Part shown: positions 48,593-56,496 of the stretch, in pieces
Layout: every line of letters begins with the position of its first letter
How positions within the stretch are numbered: the first letter of the stretch is position 1
Assembly (NCBI GenBank): GCA_036703275.1
Contig: DATNPK010000108.1
Coordinates: 62,001-126,000 of the forward strand
Length of the DNA stretch: 64,000 nt
DNA from: Coleofasciculaceae cyanobacterium
Lineage (GTDB): Bacteria > Cyanobacteriota > Cyanobacteriia > Cyanobacteriales > Xenococcaceae
Reading direction: 5' to 3'
Program-made: the position numbers and the translations under genes
The notes under the pieces: model-generated
Database searches by the model: none
What the model was told of the DNA's origin: nothing
The model's input: only the letters and a program-made list of their open reading frames with translations

Positions 48593-48621
48593 ATAACGGC
48601 ACAGTAACAGAGGTGAAAGCA

Positions 48622-48990
48622 ATGAAGCTAACTTATCGAGGAGTCCAATATCAAGAAGAAAATCACAATTCTTCAAACTCAGTAGTAGCAATACAGAACC
48701 AAGAGATTATTTATCGGGGAAATTCTCTCAAAGTCAGAATTAAGCCTAAATTTCCTTGGTTAAACTACATCAAACAGCTATTTCGCCAGTCTGAATCAAA
48801 ACCAGTTTTCGATCCAATTACATTTTGGTACGCTCATAAAAGGAAATTCATCGAAAGTTGTTGGTTTGCAGACGATGTAGAAAAACTAGATCGCGCTTGG
48901 GATTTGACTTTGGCAATGGAAAAAGCCAAGTCTTCAAAATCAAAGCAGAAAACTAAACTAAAATATCGTGGTGTAACTTATTATAAATAA
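48622..48990 (+). CDS. DUF4278 protein under a glutamine riboswitch (PirA-like)
   Basis: 122 residues from the ATG at 48622. An in-frame GTG at 48613 is less likely, because AGAGG (48609-48613) is well spaced for the ATG. The N-terminus MKLTYRGVQYQ and the C-terminus KLKYRGVTYYK both carry the DUF4278 strand motif, so the protein starts and ends with a copy. In between is a charged region, with IYRGNSLKVRIKPK making a third weaker match. The small PII-binding regulator PirA of Synechocystis belongs to this family. With the riboswitch in front, a role in nitrogen control is a sound guess, but the larger size means the function may differ. Confidence 0.7.
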   Translation: MKLTYRGVQYQEENHNSSNSVVAIQNQEIIYRGNSLKVRIKPKFPWLNYIKQLFRQSESKPVFDPITFWYAHKRKFIESCWFADDVEKLDRAWDLTLAMEKAKSSKSKQKTKLKYRGVTYYK

Positions 48991-50109: not shown

Positions 50110-50553
50110 ATGGATTTAGAAAATAAAGAATTAAGCGAACTTTTTAAATTAGCCGATACAATTGGTAGTCGCAGATATCATCGACTAACAACCCAAGACT
50201 TAAATGATTATCTAAAATACGATCGCTGGCGATATATAAATGGCGATTTTGAATGTGGCACTACTGCCGAAAGCAGAGCTTGGGTAAAAGAACATTCTGA
50301 CTGGTATTGCCCAATTTGTAGCGAAAAATATGGCGATCGCAAAGGTAAAACTATCGATCATAAATTACCGCGATCGCAATATCCTTGGTTATCTTTAGAA
50401 TGGTCAAATCTTTGGGTTATTTGTCGTGTCTGTAACCGCGAAAAAGGAGAAAGGCACTGGTACGAATACGAACAATATATGTATCAAAAATATCCCCAAG
50501 ATTATCCTGTAATCAAGACTGCTCGTCCAATCGAGCTACTGAATCTAAAGTAA
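50110..50553 (+). CDS. HNH endonuclease
   Basis: 147 residues. An N-terminal helical part (about 1-45) is shared with the preceding protein. The HNH core has CPIC near 67-70, KTIDHKLPRSQYPWLSLEWSNLWVICRVCNREKG near 80-115 with the catalytic His of DHK, the Asn of SNLW and a second CxxC. It could cut DNA as a homing-type, phage-type or defence nuclease. It is 17 nt after the preceding gene. Confidence 0.8.
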   Translation: MDLENKELSELFKLADTIGSRRYHRLTTQDLNDYLKYDRWRYINGDFECGTTAESRAWVKEHSDWYCPICSEKYGDRKGKTIDHKLPRSQYPWLSLEWSNLWVICRVCNREKGERHWYEYEQYMYQKYPQDYPVIKTARPIELLNLK

Positions 50554-50620: not shown

Positions 50621-52123
50621 TTAACGACGATATATTTGCGTTTTTCTCGCTTCAGAACGCAAACGCTCTCTTGTCGCTTTGCTTCCTCCTGTCAGATTAG
50701 AAACAATAATAAATGCGGCTAATCCTACTAAAGGACTAATCAAAGTCGGGAAACCATCAAAATCCGCCGTAAAAATACCGTTAGGAATATACAGTAACGT
50801 ATTGTCGATGCCAAATGTAATCGGCATTAACACAAATAATATTAGTCGCGTTAAAGAACCAAAAATAATACAGGATAGCGCACCCTGCCAAGTCGCTTTT
50901 GACCAGAATAAACCTCCAGCTAGAGGCACTAAAAGACCAGCAAATCCCAAATCGAAAGCTAATAATAGCAAAACTCCAGTTTGCGGTATTTTCAAGGCAA
51001 AAAAGACTCCCAACGCCGTAATCGCAAAAGCCATAACGCGGGTAACCAATAATAGTCTGTCACCTGCTACATTATGGTCGTCGGAACGAATACCAATTAT
51101 ATTGTGGGCAATCACCGAAGAAGTACCCAGAATTGCACCATCGGCAGTAGAAAGAGAAGCGGAAAGAATTGCCACAATTACCAAAAACCCTAATAAAGGA
51201 GGAACAATACCGTCAAGTAAAGCATAAAGAATTGGCCCTTCAGGTGTAATTCCTGCATCAGCCAGAATTTGGGGTGCAGAGAGGGCAATTAAAGAGAAAG
51301 GAATCCCAATAATTAACGTGCCAGCACAGCCGATTAAACAAGCTTTTTGGGCGGTTTCAGGACTCTCAGCCGCAAAAATACGCGCCATAAAATCGATCGC
51401 CACAATATCTCCCAATCCCAACGCTAGTAAAGTCGCCCAGTTAACCACTGCACCAGAAGCAGGATCGGTTAATTGTGCTAAAGCAAAAGGACCAGTATCG
51501 GCAGATATATCTAAACCAAAGTTAAAAGCCATAAAAGCTAATAACGCTAAAGAACCGATAAAAGCAATACTCACCTGGATCGCATCGGTATAAGCCACGG
51601 CAAATAGCCCGCCACTAGCAGTATAGATAAAGACGACAATTGCCAATAGCATTACCCCAGCCGTATAGCTTGTGCCTAAAAAGGCTTCAAATAAGTATCC
51701 TCCCGCCACTAAGTTACCAGCCAGCAGAAAGGAAAAGCTTAACACCATTAAACAAGATGCCACTACTTCGGTTTGGCGATTGTATTTAACTCGATAAAAA
51801 TCTGGCAGGGTAATTAAACCCATGCGGTTCATCGGTTTAGCAAAAAATAGAGCGGTTAAAAATAAGCACAGTGCTAATCCAATTGGTAAAGATGCACCAG
51901 CCCAAAAACCGAACTCGGCTGCTAAATCTGTATTACCCAAAGTAGCGTTAGAGTCTACCGACTGTGCCATTAAGGTTGCTGCTGCTAAAGGTAATACCAA
52001 TCCTCGTCCAGCAATTAAATAGTTTTCGCTATCTCCCTTAACTTGTTTAGCTGCCCACATTCCAATCGCTAGAGTAGCGACTAAAAACAGGATAATTCCC
52101 CAGAACATTAATTTTTCTGTCAT
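50621..52123 (-). CDS. Sodium:solute symporter (SSS family), candidate guanidine-operon transporter
   Basis: 500 residues with about 13 membrane helices. LVATLAIGMWAAKQVKGDSENYLIAGRGLVLPLAAATLMAQSVDSNATLGN near 15-65 carries the SSS hallmark with an unwound first helix, and SLSTADGAILGTSSVIAHNI near 320-340 holds the Ser/Thr residues of the second Na+ site. Family members carry proline, urea, sugars, iodide and other solutes. It is the last gene of the minus-strand run that starts with the guanidine riboswitch, 90 nt after ghaB. The spacer has a stem-loop and a GGTCAATTTTGACC palindrome just before the AGGAGT ribosome-binding site. Uptake of guanidine or urea is a reasoned guess. Confidence 0.85.
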   Translation of the reverse strand: MTEKLMFWGIILFLVATLAIGMWAAKQVKGDSENYLIAGRGLVLPLAAATLMAQSVDSNATLGNTDLAAEFGFWAGASLPIGLALCLFLTALFFAKPMNRMGLITLPDFYRVKYNRQTEVVASCLMVLSFSFLLAGNLVAGGYLFEAFLGTSYTAGVMLLAIVVFIYTASGGLFAVAYTDAIQVSIAFIGSLALLAFMAFNFGLDISADTGPFALAQLTDPASGAVVNWATLLALGLGDIVAIDFMARIFAAESPETAQKACLIGCAGTLIIGIPFSLIALSAPQILADAGITPEGPILYALLDGIVPPLLGFLVIVAILSASLSTADGAILGTSSVIAHNIIGIRSDDHNVAGDRLLLVTRVMAFAITALGVFFALKIPQTGVLLLLAFDLGFAGLLVPLAGGLFWSKATWQGALSCIIFGSLTRLILFVLMPITFGIDNTLLYIPNGIFTADFDGFPTLISPLVGLAAFIIVSNLTGGSKATRERLRSEARKTQIYRR

Positions 52124-52133
52124 AATGACTCCT

Positions 52134-52147
52134 GGTCAATTTTGACC
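52134..52147. promoter_or_regulatory. Perfect palindrome before the symporter gene
   Basis: GGTCAATTTTGACC (arms GGTCAA/TTGACC) lies directly upstream of the AGGAGT ribosome-binding site of the symporter gene on the minus strand. It may be an operator or a hairpin affecting translation. Confidence 0.4.
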
Positions 52148-52165
52148 ATATAACTTTTTTCAACT

Positions 52166-52210
52166 AGAGCGATAGGAGTCCTGCCAAGAATTACCAATCG
52201 CTCTTTTTTT
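52166..52210. other. Stem-loop between ghaB and the symporter gene
   Basis: AGAGCGAT (52166-52173) and ATCGCTCT (52197-52204) pair. Seven Ts follow on the plus strand, so it looks like a plus-strand terminator, yet no plus-strand gene leads into it. On the minus-strand message it would be a stem-loop without a U-run, which might adjust expression of the symporter relative to the chaperones. Confidence 0.5.
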
Positions 52211-52213
52211 GCT

Positions 52214-52915
52214 TTAATTTTGTCTGGTTAATTGTTTAGTTTGATGGCGTTGAACGATATTCTTTACCCAATCAAACCACTGTTCTAGACCTTCTCCTGT
52301 TTTCCCTGAGAGATAAATGATCGTTACCTTGGGATTGATTTGTCGTACATTAGCAGCAATGCGATTCAGGTCAACATCTAAATATGGTGCTAAATCGGTT
52401 TTGGTAATCAATAAGCAATCTGCCTCTTGGAACATTACAGGATACTTCAAAGGTTTGTCTTCTCCTTCAGTGACGCTGAGTAGAGCAACCTTGGCATGTT
52501 CTCCTACTTCAAATTCGGCGGGACAAACTAAGTTACCGACGTTTTCCACCAAAGCTAAATCGAAATCGCTTGGATTGTATTGATGTTCTAAAGTATGGAT
52601 GCCTCCTGCAACCATCTTGGAATCCAAATGGCAAGAACGCCCCGTATTAATCGCAATTACGGGAACGTCATATTGACGAAGGCGATCGGCATCTAGTTCG
52701 GTAGTCATATCTCCTTCAATTACGACCATTTTGAATTTAGCTTTTAAAGTTTTTAAAGTTTGTTCGAGAAGAACAGTTTTTCCCGCCCCAGGACTGCTCA
52801 TAATATTGAGACAGGTAATCCCCCAGCGATCGAAATGCTGGCGATTATGGTCTGCGCCTGCTTGGTTGGCATGAAGTAGATTGAGTTCAATTGCAGCGTC
52901 GAATGTTTGGTGCAT
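52214..52915 (-). CDS. ghaB: HypB-like nickel-insertion GTPase (GhaB)
   Basis: 233 residues. Walker A SPGAGKT near 41-47, [16 protein letters not shown] (switch region), [11 protein letters not shown] near 93-103 with the metal-binding Cys-His pair, [17 protein letters not shown] and [13 protein letters not shown] for guanine recognition. No His-rich tail and no N-terminal CxxCGC motif are present, so it is the short kind of HypB. Next to ghaA and a GdmH-type hydrolase, it most likely loads Ni2+ into that hydrolase, not into a hydrogenase; no hydrogenase gene is in view. Confidence 0.87.
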
Positions 52916-52941
52916 TGTTTTTGGTTAATAGTATTTATTAA

Positions 52942-53337
52942 TCATTTATCCGTAAGGGCGGTGCGCGAACTGCCCTTGCAGGTATCTAGAGAAGAATATT
53001 CAATGCGATCGATTTTTAGTTCTCGACCAGAGCGAATATCTTCCATAGGTGAATTACAATCAGGACAACTGTATTGCAGTCCAATTTGGGGTTTATATTC
53101 TTGTTGGCAACTATGACAAAAAGCAATCAAAGCAATATCACGAATAGTTAGTTCTACTCCTTCTAAAAAGGTATTGCGGGTTTGAACTTCAAAAGCAAAC
53201 TGCAAACTAACTGGTTCGACACAGGTAAATTCGCCAACTATCAAAGAAATTTTTTCTATTTTTGGTTGTTCTGGTTGAGAATAATACCAATCTTTAACCG
53301 TCAGGATTAAAGCCTTGGTCATATCAGTTTCGTGCAT
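52942..53337 (-). CDS. ghaA: HypA-like nickel chaperone (GhaA)
   Basis: 131 residues. The N-terminus MHET offers the conserved Met-His-Glu nickel site. A zinc ribbon is made by CHSC at 74-77 and CPDC at 91-94. The C-terminal tail (DTCKGSSRTALTDK) extends a few residues past the usual end. It lies 26 nt before ghaB, so the two genes are co-transcribed. In Synechocystis the HypA/HypB paralogues beside the guanidine hydrolase are required for its activity. Confidence 0.87.
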   Translation of the reverse strand: MHETDMTKALILTVKDWYYSQPEQPKIEKISLIVGEFTCVEPVSLQFAFEVQTRNTFLEGVELTIRDIALIAFCHSCQQEYKPQIGLQYSCPDCNSPMEDIRSGRELKIDRIEYSSLDTCKGSSRTALTDK

Positions 53338-53402
53338 ATTTTTAGTTATTATTAAATAGGCATTCGCCCTGGCTCGATAATCATAAATAAACTACATTCG
53401 GT

Positions 53403-54020
53403 TTAATTACCTAACTGTGAATCTGTAATTAAAATATGTCTGGGTTGAGATTTAACTTTTTTAAACCAAGAATTAATAGCCAAAAAGTCACTTAAATCAA
53501 ATCCGCCTTCTTCTGCAACATGGGTATAAGCATAAAGACCAATATCGGCAATAGTGTATTTATTTGCTACAAAAAAATCATGTTTTTTTAAATGCTGTTC
53601 CATAACATTTAAAGCTTTGTAACCCAATTTTCGCTTTTGTTCGATCTGTTCTCGATATTTATCGGCGTGCTTGAGTTCGGTAATCCAAAAACGAGGAGTA
53701 GCAATATTTGGTTCGTGACTATATTGCTCGAAAAATAGCCACTGCATTATTTGAGTTTGTTGATATTTATCTTTGGGGAAGTACTTCGTTCCTTGACTAA
53801 GATGATATAAAATTGCGTTCGATTCAGAAATAAATGTATCCGAGGCAATTTCTAGCAAGGGAATTTTACCATTAGGATTTTTAGCCAAAAATTCAGGGGT
53901 ACGAGTTTCTTGCTTGAGAATATTGAGTTGAATTAACTCAAAAGGAATTTGTAATTGTGTTAATAACAAGCGAACTTTATAGCCATTGCCAGAAGGGAGA
54001 AAGTCATATAGTTTATACAT
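53403..54020 (-). CDS. Glutathione S-transferase-like protein
   Basis: 205 residues. N-terminal thioredoxin-like domain: MYKLYDFLPSGNGYKVRLLLTQLQIPFELIQL, with the Ser/Asn of SGNGYK in the active-site region, NPNGKIPLLEI (cis-Pro) and ISESNAILYHLSQG near 65-80 for glutathione. C-terminal helical domain: FFVANKYTIADIGLYAYTHVAEEGGFDL. It could conjugate or reduce a reactive metabolite. Its start overlaps the upstream methyltransferase stop by 8 nt. A GST is not a known part of guanidine metabolism; its role in the operon is open. Confidence 0.87.
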   Translation of the reverse strand: MYKLYDFLPSGNGYKVRLLLTQLQIPFELIQLNILKQETRTPEFLAKNPNGKIPLLEIASDTFISESNAILYHLSQGTKYFPKDKYQQTQIMQWLFFEQYSHEPNIATPRFWITELKHADKYREQIEQKRKLGYKALNVMEQHLKKHDFFVANKYTIADIGLYAYTHVAEEGGFDLSDFLAINSWFKKVKSQPRHILITDSQLGN

Positions 54021-54765
54021 AATTAGTACTTATAGTTATTAAGCGCGAATTAAAATAAACTAAACTTTGCCCATCGCGGTATTTATCGTATAGTTTGTAT
54101 AGTTGACCGATAAATTGCTCCTTTGGTTTTCTTTTGGGTATGTATGATGTACTCATGGCACGCCCGACTAAACCAAGACGATCTAAGACTTGTCGAGCGG
54201 GAAAAGTTAGCAAAGTAACGGTTGAAAATAGAAAAGTTTCGCGGAGAAATCTTTTCGCGTAACGCAACTCGGACTGATTATTAGAAACTGTTTTGGTAAA
54301 ATGACTATACTCGGCGGTAAATTCATCTTGACGAGCGCGATTATTGCAGACTGCTGCTAGTCTTCCCTTTGGCTTCAAAATACGAGCAAATTCTTTAAGT
54401 GTCGGTTCGCGATTAAACCAATGAAAAGCTTGAAAGCAGGTGACTAGGTCGACTGAATTATTTTCTAGTTTAGTATTCTCAGCATTACCATCTTGAAATT
54501 TTACTAATGAATCAGGTTTTGCTGCTTGTCTCATAGCTGCATTTGGCTCGATCGCAATTACTTTAATTCCCCTATCTGCTAATAAACGGGAAGAAATACC
54601 AGTTCTTGCCCCGATATCAGCAACTATTAACTGCGATGGTGCGCTTAATCCCTTTAAAATCGCGTCAATAGCTTCTGATGGATAACTAGGTCGATATAAA
54701 GCGTAATCTATTGCGCGATCGCTAAATCGCTCTTGGGGATTCATATGATATAGATTGTCAGTCAT
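54013..54765 (-). CDS. SAM-dependent methyltransferase (class I)
   Basis: 250 residues. RFSDRAIDYALYRPSYPSEAID at the start, LIVADIGARTGISSRLLADRGIKVIAIEPN (motif I) near 47-76, FQDGNAENTKLENNSVDLVTCFQAFHWFN near 92-120, and RILKPKGRLAAVCNN. This is the Methyltransf_11 type related to yeast Crg1/Tmt1. It overlaps the GST gene by 8 nt and follows gdmH by 51 nt. A tempting but unproven idea is methylation of guanidine or a related compound. Confidence 0.85.
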   Translation of the reverse strand: MTDNLYHMNPQERFSDRAIDYALYRPSYPSEAIDAILKGLSAPSQLIVADIGARTGISSRLLADRGIKVIAIEPNAAMRQAAKPDSLVKFQDGNAENTKLENNSVDLVTCFQAFHWFNREPTLKEFARILKPKGRLAAVCNNRARQDEFTAEYSHFTKTVSNNQSELRYAKRFLRETFLFSTVTLLTFPARQVLDRLGLVGRAMSTSYIPKRKPKEQFIGQLYKLYDKYRDGQSLVYFNSRLITISTNYV

Positions 54766-54816
54766 TTGTCTTATGCTTTATTAATCAAACTGCCTCTATT
54801 AGCTTCCTCTGCTTGA

Positions 54817-56010
54817 TTAACTCCAAGGTTCATCTACTACCTGGGCTTCATCGTGAATATAGGCGGGCTTTTCGGTGCGGGGTAACTGTCCCGATAAAAC
54901 TAAATGTGCCATCGTGTCGCAAATGACGCGGGTTGCCATTAGTGCTGTCATATCACTTACGTCATAGGGTGGAGAAACTTCAACCACTTCTATACCGCAA
55001 ACCGTAGTGTTCTGCACTATTTTTTTGAGCAAATATAAAACTTCGCGGGGTAATAAACCACCAGGTTCGGGCCAACCAGTACCAGGAACGAATCCTGCAT
55101 CAATGCAGTCAATATCAAAGCTAATCCAAACGCAATCTGTACCGTCTGTAGCTTTCTCGATCGCAAAGTCGGCTGCTGCATCTAGACCCATTTCCATAAT
55201 GTCGGTAACGGTTAAAATGTTAGTCGCTCTTTCCCGACAGACTTTTACTCCAGGACGGGGTACTTGCCAGCCACCAATGCCCATCTGAACTAAGTTTTTG
55301 GCTGGGGCATTTGCCATATTGGTAGCATGAAACCAAGGACAGGTGTGCATCCTTTCATCTAAGTCTGTTTCTTGAGTATCCGCATGGCGATCGAAGTGAA
55401 TAATTCCCACTTTTTTATCTCCCAAATGACGACAAACAGCCCTTACTGTGGGAAATCCAATGGAGTGATCGCCACCTAAGATAATTGGAAATGCACCAGA
55501 ACTAAAAACATGAGCTACGCCTTTAGAAATCTGGTCGAAAGACTTTTCATTGTTGGCAGGAATAGTAAAAATATCTCCCACATCACAAAGCGTAATCTGT
55601 TCCCGCAAATCTACCCCAAACTCAAAGTTATATGGCGTATATAGAGCAGAAATTTTACGAATACCTTGAGGCCCAAAACGAGTACCAGGGCGATAGGTAG
55701 TGCCAGAATCGTGGGGAACGCCGATAATTGCTACATCATAATTGCCTACTTGGTTAACATTCTCTAAATAAGGAGCTTTTAAGAAAGTATTAATCCCCGC
55801 ATAGTGGGGCAATTCTCCCCGCGAAAACGTAGAAATAGTTCGATCTTTAATACTTCCTGCTGCTTCTAAACCATATTCGAGACCCTGTTCTACTTCTTGT
55901 TGCCAACCTGTCAAAGGTAGCTGGCGTTCTTTGTCTAACGCTTTTTGTGCTTCGCTTTTGGATTCGTTCTCATTATTACTCGGTGGTTGGAATGGGGATT
56001 GCTCGCTCAT
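54817..56010 (-). CDS. gdmH: Ni-dependent guanidine hydrolase (GdmH-type, arginase/ureohydrolase family)
   Basis: 397 residues from the ATG at 56010 (MSEQSPF). An in-frame TTG at 56028 would add six residues, but AGAGG spaced for the ATG decides the start. Ureohydrolase metal motifs: ILGGDHSIGFPTVRAV near 177, IIHFDRHADTQE near 203 and ISFDIDCIDAGFVPGTGWPEPGG near 297, with all His/Asp metal ligands. An N-terminal extension of about 90 residues before the core is longer than in agmatinases. The guanidine-I riboswitch upstream and ghaA/ghaB downstream repeat the context of Sll1077 of Synechocystis, which splits guanidine into urea and ammonia. Agmatinase or guanidinobutyrase activity cannot be excluded by eye. 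Confidence 0.88.
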   Translation of the reverse strand: MSEQSPFQPPSNNENESKSEAQKALDKERQLPLTGWQQEVEQGLEYGLEAAGSIKDRTISTFSRGELPHYAGINTFLKAPYLENVNQVGNYDVAIIGVPHDSGTTYRPGTRFGPQGIRKISALYTPYNFEFGVDLREQITLCDVGDIFTIPANNEKSFDQISKGVAHVFSSGAFPIILGGDHSIGFPTVRAVCRHLGDKKVGIIHFDRHADTQETDLDERMHTCPWFHATNMANAPAKNLVQMGIGGWQVPRPGVKVCRERATNILTVTDIMEMGLDAAADFAIEKATDGTDCVWISFDIDCIDAGFVPGTGWPEPGGLLPREVLYLLKKIVQNTTVCGIEVVEVSPPYDVSDMTALMATRVICDTMAHLVLSGQLPRTEKPAYIHDEAQVVDEPWS

Positions 56011-56140
56011 AAAATTATTCCTCTGCAATTTATCTTAAAAGGTAAAACTCAGTCCGCTATTATATTCGTTTCTGTTATCATTTGCTGACTAAAAAGGTAA
56101 GATGTTCGCTCATAAAATTATTCTTTGGCAATTTATCTCA
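56003..56140 (-). repeat. Direct repeat duplicating the gdmH start region
   Basis: The 35 bp at 56003-56037, which hold the ribosome-binding region and start codon of gdmH, recur at 56106-56140 with four mismatches (offset 103 bp). The upstream copy has an ATG (56113) opening an 11-codon frame, MSEHLTFLVSK, ending at 56078. Only the copy next to the gene has AGAGG. The spare copy lies just downstream of the riboswitch terminator. Confidence 0.85.
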
Positions 56141-56145
56141 AACGC

Positions 56146-56197
56146 AAAAAACCCAGGAAGAACGACACTATATTTCAAGCATCGAATCCTCCCGGGC
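56146..56197 (-). terminator. Intrinsic terminator of the guanidine riboswitch
   Basis: On the minus strand, CCCGGGAGGA (56196-56187) pairs with TTCTTCCTGGG (56162-56152), giving about ten pairs with G-T wobbles, and is followed at once by TTTTTT. The 5' arm is part of the conserved 3' end of the aptamer (AGCCCGGGAGG), so aptamer folding and terminator folding exclude each other. Confidence 0.85.
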
Positions 56198-56310
56198 TTT
56201 TTTCCCGCCGTGGAGCTACCTAGTAATTAGCAATTGCTTTCTTAAGTAGCCTGCTTCTCTCGGACCAGTCATTAATTAGCACTGCTATAAATCGGAACCC
56301 TAGAAGCCTT
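56185..56310 (-). ncRNA. Guanidine-I riboswitch (ykkC/yxkD leader)
   Basis: The minus strand reads CTAGGGTTCCG (56303-56293), then ACTGGTCCGAGAG (56268-56256), then CCACGGCGGGA and AAAAGCCCGGGAGG (56214-56188). These are the invariant blocks of the ykkC aptamer in the right order. It lies about 175 nt upstream of the gdmH start. Guanidine binding should stabilise the aptamer and prevent the terminator, switching the operon on. From about 56311 to 56496 upstream I see only AT-rich DNA, which should hold the promoter. Confidence 0.93.
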
Positions 56311-56496
56311 CTAAAATTTTTTTCTACTTTCAACTTATCTGCTTATTACGAGGAAAAATGTATCTATTGTTACTTAATCTTGTAGAGAAATGTTATTTGA
56401 TATTATTGTTTATTAACAAAAAATAAGCTGGAAAAAATGGCGATCGCCATTCTGGTTAAAAAAAGTGAAAATAAACTTCAACTTTTGAGCGGTAAA

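Follow-up and report, generated by a model that had tools for sequence, protein, structure and literature searches.

The gene cluster described here raises the question of how guanidine enters a cell that is equipped to cleave it. In a Coleofasciculaceae cyanobacterium (GenBank assembly GCA_036703275.1), a 64,000-nucleotide stretch of contig DATNPK010000108.1 (positions 62,001 to 126,000; hereafter the window) contains a guanidine-I (ykkC) riboswitch aptamer upstream of six minus-strand genes, which encode in order the guanidine hydrolase GdmH, a methyltransferase (MT), a glutathione S-transferase family protein (GST), HypA- and HypB-like proteins, and a transporter of the sodium:solute symporter family (SSS). 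The gdmH (sll1077) operon of Synechocystis sp. PCC 6803 is described as containing hypA/hypB together with the ABC genes sll1080-1082 (PMC8390497, PMC12186494), and guanidine import is attributed to the ABC transporter of that operon (PMC12186494). The symporter of the window represents a distinct SSS subfamily that, in several cyanobacterial lineages, takes the position of the ABC importer beside gdmH. Judged from its sequence and genomic context, it is probably a Na+:guanidinium importer within a guanidine-assimilation operon in which MT and GST are passengers.

The linkage between the symporter and guanidine genes was examined in two sets of cyanobacterial sequences. The first consists of gdmH loci from genome contigs and leans toward close GdmH relatives because only the best 80 of 382 loci were kept. 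The second comprises 338 genomes drawn evenly from the class, with thresholds of E 1e-60 for SSS and E 1e-50 for the ABC substrate-binding protein (SBP), and the two sets overlap (L006/G198, L035/G233, and L068/G159). SSS homologues with 69–90% identity occur at 13 of the 80 loci; in 11 of these, the SSS gene follows hypB in the same orientation (L002, L004, L005, L006, L007, L026, L035, L037, L050, L059, and L068), and in two it is divergently oriented (L042 and L057). A pattern search placed a riboswitch core upstream of gdmH in all of the same-strand loci except L037 (10/11). At L042, the SSS gene has its own riboswitch on its own strand (81.2 bits) and the divergent gdmH has another; the scan that detected these two gave no guanidine-I match in L037 or L057. 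Among the 338 genomes, 34 encode the symporter, each with a single match (67–90% identity, excluding the window's own). In 17 of them, SSS stands alone and is immediately preceded by an RF00442 match that exceeds the gathering score, and in seven others SSS follows gdmH-hypA-hypB (G000, the window's genome, and G198, G233, G193, G159, G008, and G024). GdmH was found in 139 genomes, comprising 31 of the 34 with SSS versus 108 of the 304 others (p 2e-10). The repeated linkage of SSS with gdmH, for which the initial annotation had proposed a comparison of gene neighborhoods, is borne out in both sets, and SSS is also repeatedly under guanidine-I control. As a separate observation, two guanidine-I aptamers in divergent orientation occur in locus L041, close to one end of its sequence.

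Several results weigh against a function in guanidine import. The association p values ignore shared ancestry. For the remaining 10 of the 34 SSS genes, there is no riboswitch and no linkage to gdmH, as judged for nine of them by scanning approximately 1.5 kb on each side, and one (G236) retains a 29-bit remnant; seven of these 10 genomes encode the SBP. Three SSS genomes (G188, G217, and G321) gave no GdmH match, and the pattern search left the upstream riboswitch unplaced in two of the seven operon-type genomes, namely G008, which is not among the riboswitch-matched genomes, and G193, which has one match whose position is not listed. The unlinked relatives, together with the 90-base gap upstream of SSS in the window, would suit an unrelated gene located downstream by chance, yet this explanation is hardly credible as the linkage recurs in separate branches, in two bacterial phyla and in archaea, and includes symporters with their own riboswitches. 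In a group of related genomes (L118, L120, L122, and L127), a riboswitch-less SSS is preceded by a co-directional transporter gene, which in L127 belongs to the MFS.

The symporter scores far below the NCBIfam equivalog cut-offs for PutP (116 versus 515), PanF (93 versus 328), and ActP (48 versus 750). In a tree of 52 rows, with 22 of 49 inner branches well supported, all 40 SSS rows form one group (100/99), which is separate from PutP, PanF, and ActP and from nine paralogue rows, which are on long branches. The tree and the NCBIfam scores therefore separate the window symporter from the proline and acetate carriers, a grouping that the initial annotation had named as one of two outcomes that would refute its interpretation. 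PutP, PanF, and ActP belong to the SSS family like the window symporter, and PutP and PanF share its serine in the Na2 column (alanine in ActP as aligned), but they occupy separate branches and have, as aligned, none of the four aspartates described below. Rows linked to gdmH operons fall in at least three branches, and the rows with their own riboswitch fall in a branch of 14, which includes the riboswitch-less G236, and also outside of it. Rows that were frameshifted (L037), partial (L059, G169, and G321), or duplicated (L006, L035, and L068) were excluded from the tree. The nearest rows to the window, for GdmH as well as SSS, are from the Xenococcaceae/Pleurocapsales. The dN/dS ratio of SSS is 0.05–0.11 in four comparisons.

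The nearest solved protein to the symporter by sequence is the choline transporter CHT1 (99.7 bits with a profile), for which the residues of the Na2, Na3, and choline sites and of the chloride loop are taken from PMC11589582. In the alignment, the Na2 residues S346/S347 of CHT1 correspond to S325/T326 of SSS, and the Na3 residues D188/D349 correspond to D180/D328, with S350 replaced by Gly329; the Rubrobacter SSS has a serine at the D180 position. The six aromatic residues of the choline site (W62, Y67, Y91, W141, W254, and W406) correspond to S55, A60, L83, L133, A242, and L386, and none of the six is kept in any of the 40 SSS rows. Conversely, acidic residues occupy the positions of G64 in the chloride loop (D57), E73 (D66), A256 (D244), and D411 (D391). 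All four are aspartate in 40 of 40 cyanobacterial rows and in all three of the outside proteins examined (Halalkalicoccus, Haloarcula marismortui, and Rubrobacter). This pattern suggests a pocket in which carboxylates would hold a small cation, with the fixed anion of D57 possibly standing where CHT1 binds chloride. Points on the other side are that the mapping between CHT1 and SSS is a remote alignment, that PutP has an aspartate in the S55 column, two positions before D57, so that a small alignment shift could pair them, and that two paralogues of one other subfamily have acidic residues in the D66 and D391 columns. An AlphaFold model of SSS built from a shallow 13-row alignment reached a pLDDT of 39 and was not used as support.

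ABC genes are present at 43 of the 80 gdmH loci, SSS at 13, and both at none (Fisher p 1e-5), while 24 loci, some cut by contig ends, have neither. The ABC count was set by hand to include any gdmH-linked ABC component (only an ATPase gene in L065); a lone ATPase in L037 was left out, and L034, in which the gdmH ORF was not called, is among the 24. Across the 338 genomes, the SBP was detected in 163, and the genomes with GdmH divide into 17 with SSS and SBP, 14 with SSS only, 98 with SBP only, and 10 with neither (p 2e-5). The view that SSS may replace the ABC importer, as the initial annotation proposed, thus holds at the gdmH locus but only partly across genomes, as strict exclusion at the genome level is ruled out by the 17 of 31 GdmH- and SSS-encoding genomes, including that of the window, that keep an SBP.

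The window's genome itself encodes an intact SBP-permease-ATPase trio away from the operon (contig C25), which is 77/72/82% identical (SBP/permease/ATPase) to the gdmH-linked set of Hyella, as well as a second SBP match (62%) on contig C82. Both count against the proposed role of the symporter, and the trio, along with the frequent retention of the SBP, raises the alternative that the displaced ABC transporter is still the main guanidine importer in this organism and SSS is auxiliary. We regard this as doubtful: no guanidine-I match was found near the trio at E values up to 5, the whole 5.6-Mb genome has no RF00442 match at E 0.001 other than the operon aptamer, five of the seven operon-type SSS genomes have no SBP match, and in the relative G198 a 16-kb stretch has the SBP gene without permease or ATPase. 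In locus L064, an ABC set with its own riboswitch core (by pattern) is located upstream of a riboswitch-gdmH unit.

Homologues of the symporter also occur outside the cyanobacteria. A search of 72,556 plasmid records at E 1e-40 gave seven matches, of which six were examined (H4 was left out, being from the same strain as H3), and all six have an arginase-family gene near SSS or an SSS fragment. In Rubrobacter indicoceani, a guanidine-I aptamer (75.7 bits) is followed by a GdmH homologue (59.7% identity to the window GdmH), SSS, an opposite-strand formamidase gene, and urease genes; a 5' ureB sRNA match (RF02514, 92.3 bits) was also recorded on the strand opposite these urease genes (L171, 10886-11175, minus strand). 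In Nonomuraea, a GdmH homologue (59.7%) is divergent from the SSS match at a distance of about 46 bases. Halalkalicoccus and two Haloarcula records have an arginase-family gene within 2.8 kb of SSS, and in Natronorubrum an SSS fragment (query residues 1-163) beside an IS element lies 3.3 kb from such a gene. The two haloarchaeal arginase-family proteins compared are 35-37% identical to the window GdmH, and for that of Haloarcula marismortui the closest solved chain is 7esr/7oi1. Guanidine-I scans of four further loci (L169, L170, L172, and L174) gave no match. Among 11 plasmid records with GdmH, five were examined, two of them being SSS records; the others comprise two alphaproteobacterial loci with ABC genes and a Rubrobacter radiotolerans locus with an L-lactate-permease-type gene. 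Haloarchaeal plasmids (L169, L170, L173, and L174) carry, along with the arginase-family gene and an SSS gene or SSS remnant, an AbrB/PhoU-type gene whose product is a possible guanidine regulator. We tentatively propose, while holding the broader idea to be somewhat short of an even chance, that in cyanobacteria, Actinomycetota, and haloarchaea an SLC5-type, CHT-related subfamily takes up guanidinium together with Na+, that carboxylates (D57 at the chloride loop, D244, D66, and D391) replace the aromatic cage and bound chloride, and that in haloarchaea the subfamily would mark an as yet undescribed module for guanidine use, comprising a GdmH-like hydrolase and a regulator of the AbrB/PhoU type.

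Formamidase genes occur close to SSS in two lineages, Rubrobacter and Haloarcula, and leave room for an SSS substrate other than guanidinium. The substrates of SSS proteins vary widely, and the symporter could carry a related solute, such as urea, methylguanidine, agmatine, or a different guanidino or amide compound, with guanidine acting only as the inducer; the urease genes of the Rubrobacter locus would fit this possibility as well. Nevertheless, it appears unlikely given that SSS alone is under guanidine-I control in 17 genomes, that SSS occupies the ABC position at the gdmH locus, and that the four invariant membrane-helix aspartates would be more appropriate for a small cation than for urea or formamide.

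The operon is presumably switched on by guanidine. Rfam and domain matches confirm the ykkC aptamer and the same-strand row of six genes with short gaps and one overlap that had been described initially, with the aptamer ending four bases past the end coordinate given then (Table 1). The intergenic gaps from gdmH to SSS are, in order, 51, −8, 65, 26, and 90 bases, MT and GST being the overlapping pair. A simple scan found no minus-strand terminator-like sites in these gaps, a weak result, as the scan gave eight sites in the whole window against 5.5 expected by chance. A 60-base hairpin that overlaps the aptamer was matched in stability by none of 200 shuffles; the 3' strand of the aptamer serves as its 5' arm, and it terminates in TTTTTT. 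Transcriptional ON switches usually share an aptamer strand with a terminator in this way, and the hairpin is presumed to be the expression platform, off without guanidine. Of 20 aptamers tested (from the 17 genomes with an SSS-specific riboswitch, L042, the window, and Rubrobacter), 13 are followed by a similar hairpin with at least four T residues. Inspection of the other seven by eye revealed six with a matching arm and a shorter T run, and the Rubrobacter aptamer with an arm and no T run.

Table 1. Features of the guanidine-responsive locus, with positions given in the window.
Feature	Position	Strand	Evidence
Guanidine-I (ykkC) riboswitch aptamer	56187..56314	−	RF00442, 79.6 bits, E 1.5e-12, cut-off 63
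Terminator hairpin, presumed expression platform	56146..56205	−	Fold −31.1 kcal/mol, z −7.6
gdmH, Ni-dependent guanidine hydrolase	54817..56010	−	PF00491, 263 bits
Class I methyltransferase (MT) gene, probably inactive here	54013..54765	−	Domain match, alignment of relatives
GST-family gene, probably lineage-specific passenger	53403..54020	−	PF02798/PF00043; GST_N and GST_C above cut-off
hypA-like nickel metallochaperone (GhaA role)	52942..53337	−	PF01155, 104 bits
hypB-like nickel GTPase (GhaB role)	52214..52915	−	TIGR00073, 309 bits
SSS/SLC5 symporter, proposed Na+:guanidinium importer	50621..52123	−	PF00474, 118.1 bits vs gathering score 22.8

Guanidine-driven antitermination is known for the guanidine-I riboswitch class. 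In the window, the leader would fold into the terminator without guanidine, this competing hairpin being the part of the mechanism that folding reveals here, and guanidine binding to the aptamer would hold the shared strand and allow transcription to proceed. The SSS protein would then bring in guanidinium with Na+, and the HypA/HypB-like proteins would load Ni into GdmH, which would cleave guanidine to urea and ammonium, as is known for close homologues. Urease, whose alpha subunit gene is located elsewhere in the genome (G000:C76), would finish the release of nitrogen.

The enzyme part of the operon, consisting of GdmH and HypA/HypB-like chaperones, is already known. The arginase-family protein of the window was taken as GdmH because it matches the solved chain 7esr/7oi1 with 803 bits (E 4e-241); the entry is named "Probable agmatinase 2", and we take the chain to be Synechocystis GdmH. 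The gdmH ORF could be extended to 56028 through a TTG start. No HypA match other than the HypA-like protein of the operon is present in the genome, which fits a dedicated chaperone. In L020 and L053, a glutamine-synthetase-like ORF, labelled by eye, separates hypA from hypB; in L065, such an ORF lies at a distance of 5.7 kb from the start of gdmH.

The MT and GST genes, which had been suggested initially as new parts of guanidine handling or detoxification, look like lineage-specific passengers rather than core parts. MT is present at seven of the 80 gdmH loci (L002, L003, L004, L006, L009, L012, and L019) and GST at eight (L002, L003, L005 as a fragment, L006, L010, L019, L050, and L059). They are found together at four loci, MT alone at three, and GST alone at four, with either SSS or ABC genes. 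L050, where GST accompanies SSS in the absence of MT, is from Xenococcus sp. PCC 7305. Class I methyltransferases have a GxGxG motif for S-adenosylmethionine (SAM) binding, at the presumed site of which the window MT has Arg54 (DIGARTG) in place of the glycine found in seven of seven aligned relatives (DIGAGTG or VGAGTG). Its C-terminus is also diverged, and these features suggest that MT is probably inactive in this genome, which encodes an intact MT paralogue (61%) elsewhere (G000:C28). Between the window and L006, the dN/dS ratios are 0.04 for GdmH, 0.07 for SSS, 0.10 for GST, 0.11 for HypB, 0.20 for HypA, and 0.29 for MT. Values for MT are 0.15-0.34 in seven comparisons, and MT has therefore been under some constraint, while those for GST (0.10-0.17 in six comparisons) indicate purifying selection. 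The selection on GST, and the position of both genes inside the row with an 8-base overlap, would be in accordance with working parts of guanidine metabolism. We consider such a role very unlikely, as each gene is scattered over the loci and occurs without the other, the window MT has an arginine in the presumed SAM motif, the L012 MT is truncated, and the L005 GST is a remnant. Moreover, at E 1e-50, 29 of 60 relatives have a GST homologue, some of them without a GdmH match; among such genomes of the order (GdmH searched at E 1e-100), the GST homologues of G305 and G314 have no internal stop and those of G123 and G277 have one stop each.

Beyond the SSS end of the row, an HNH endonuclease-type ORF (50110-50553, plus strand; PF01844, 34.5 bits) is convergent with the SSS gene. 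Further along, a glutamine riboswitch (RF01739, 48518-48590, plus strand, 58.7 bits) is located 22 bases before a DUF4278 ORF (48613-48990, plus strand), and a glutamine riboswitch is also found beside SSS in G198 (L083, 3424-3499).

The operon is of a known kind, and its carrier belongs to a family that the searched literature did not link to guanidine; our search found no description of an SSS guanidine carrier, the likeliest earlier sources lay outside its coverage, and priority is not established. If the proposed function is correct, a Na+-coupled carrier of the SLC5 family would add a third route for guanidine import, independent of ATP, to those of the ABC and APC transporters, and it would constitute a branch of SLC5 with selectivity for a planar cation, informing substrate choice in a medically relevant family. 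The locus offers a direct genetic test of the identity of the guanidine importer, and the findings also point to possible guanidine use in haloarchaea. Compared with known systems, the window shares the guanidine-I riboswitch, GdmH, and HypA/HypB-like chaperones with the Synechocystis PCC 6803 operon but differs in having SSS in place of the ABC genes, with MT and GST between gdmH and hypA. In comammox Nitrospira, a guanidinase is described with an APC-superfamily permease as the predicted guanidine importer, and as in the window a guanidine-I riboswitch is present and an ATP-independent permease takes the place of the ABC transporter; the permease family differs from the SSS/SLC5 of the window, and Ni chaperones, which are present here, are reported absent there (PMC11410670). 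The sodium-coupled choline transporter CHT1/sfCHT (SLC5A7; PMC11589582, PMC13220886) resembles the window symporter in the Na2 residues and Na3 aspartates, in the acidic residues at the E73/D411 columns, and in transporting a cation, as proposed here, whereas the window symporter differs from CHT1 in lacking all six choline-site aromatics and in the replacement of the chloride-loop Gly64 by Asp57.

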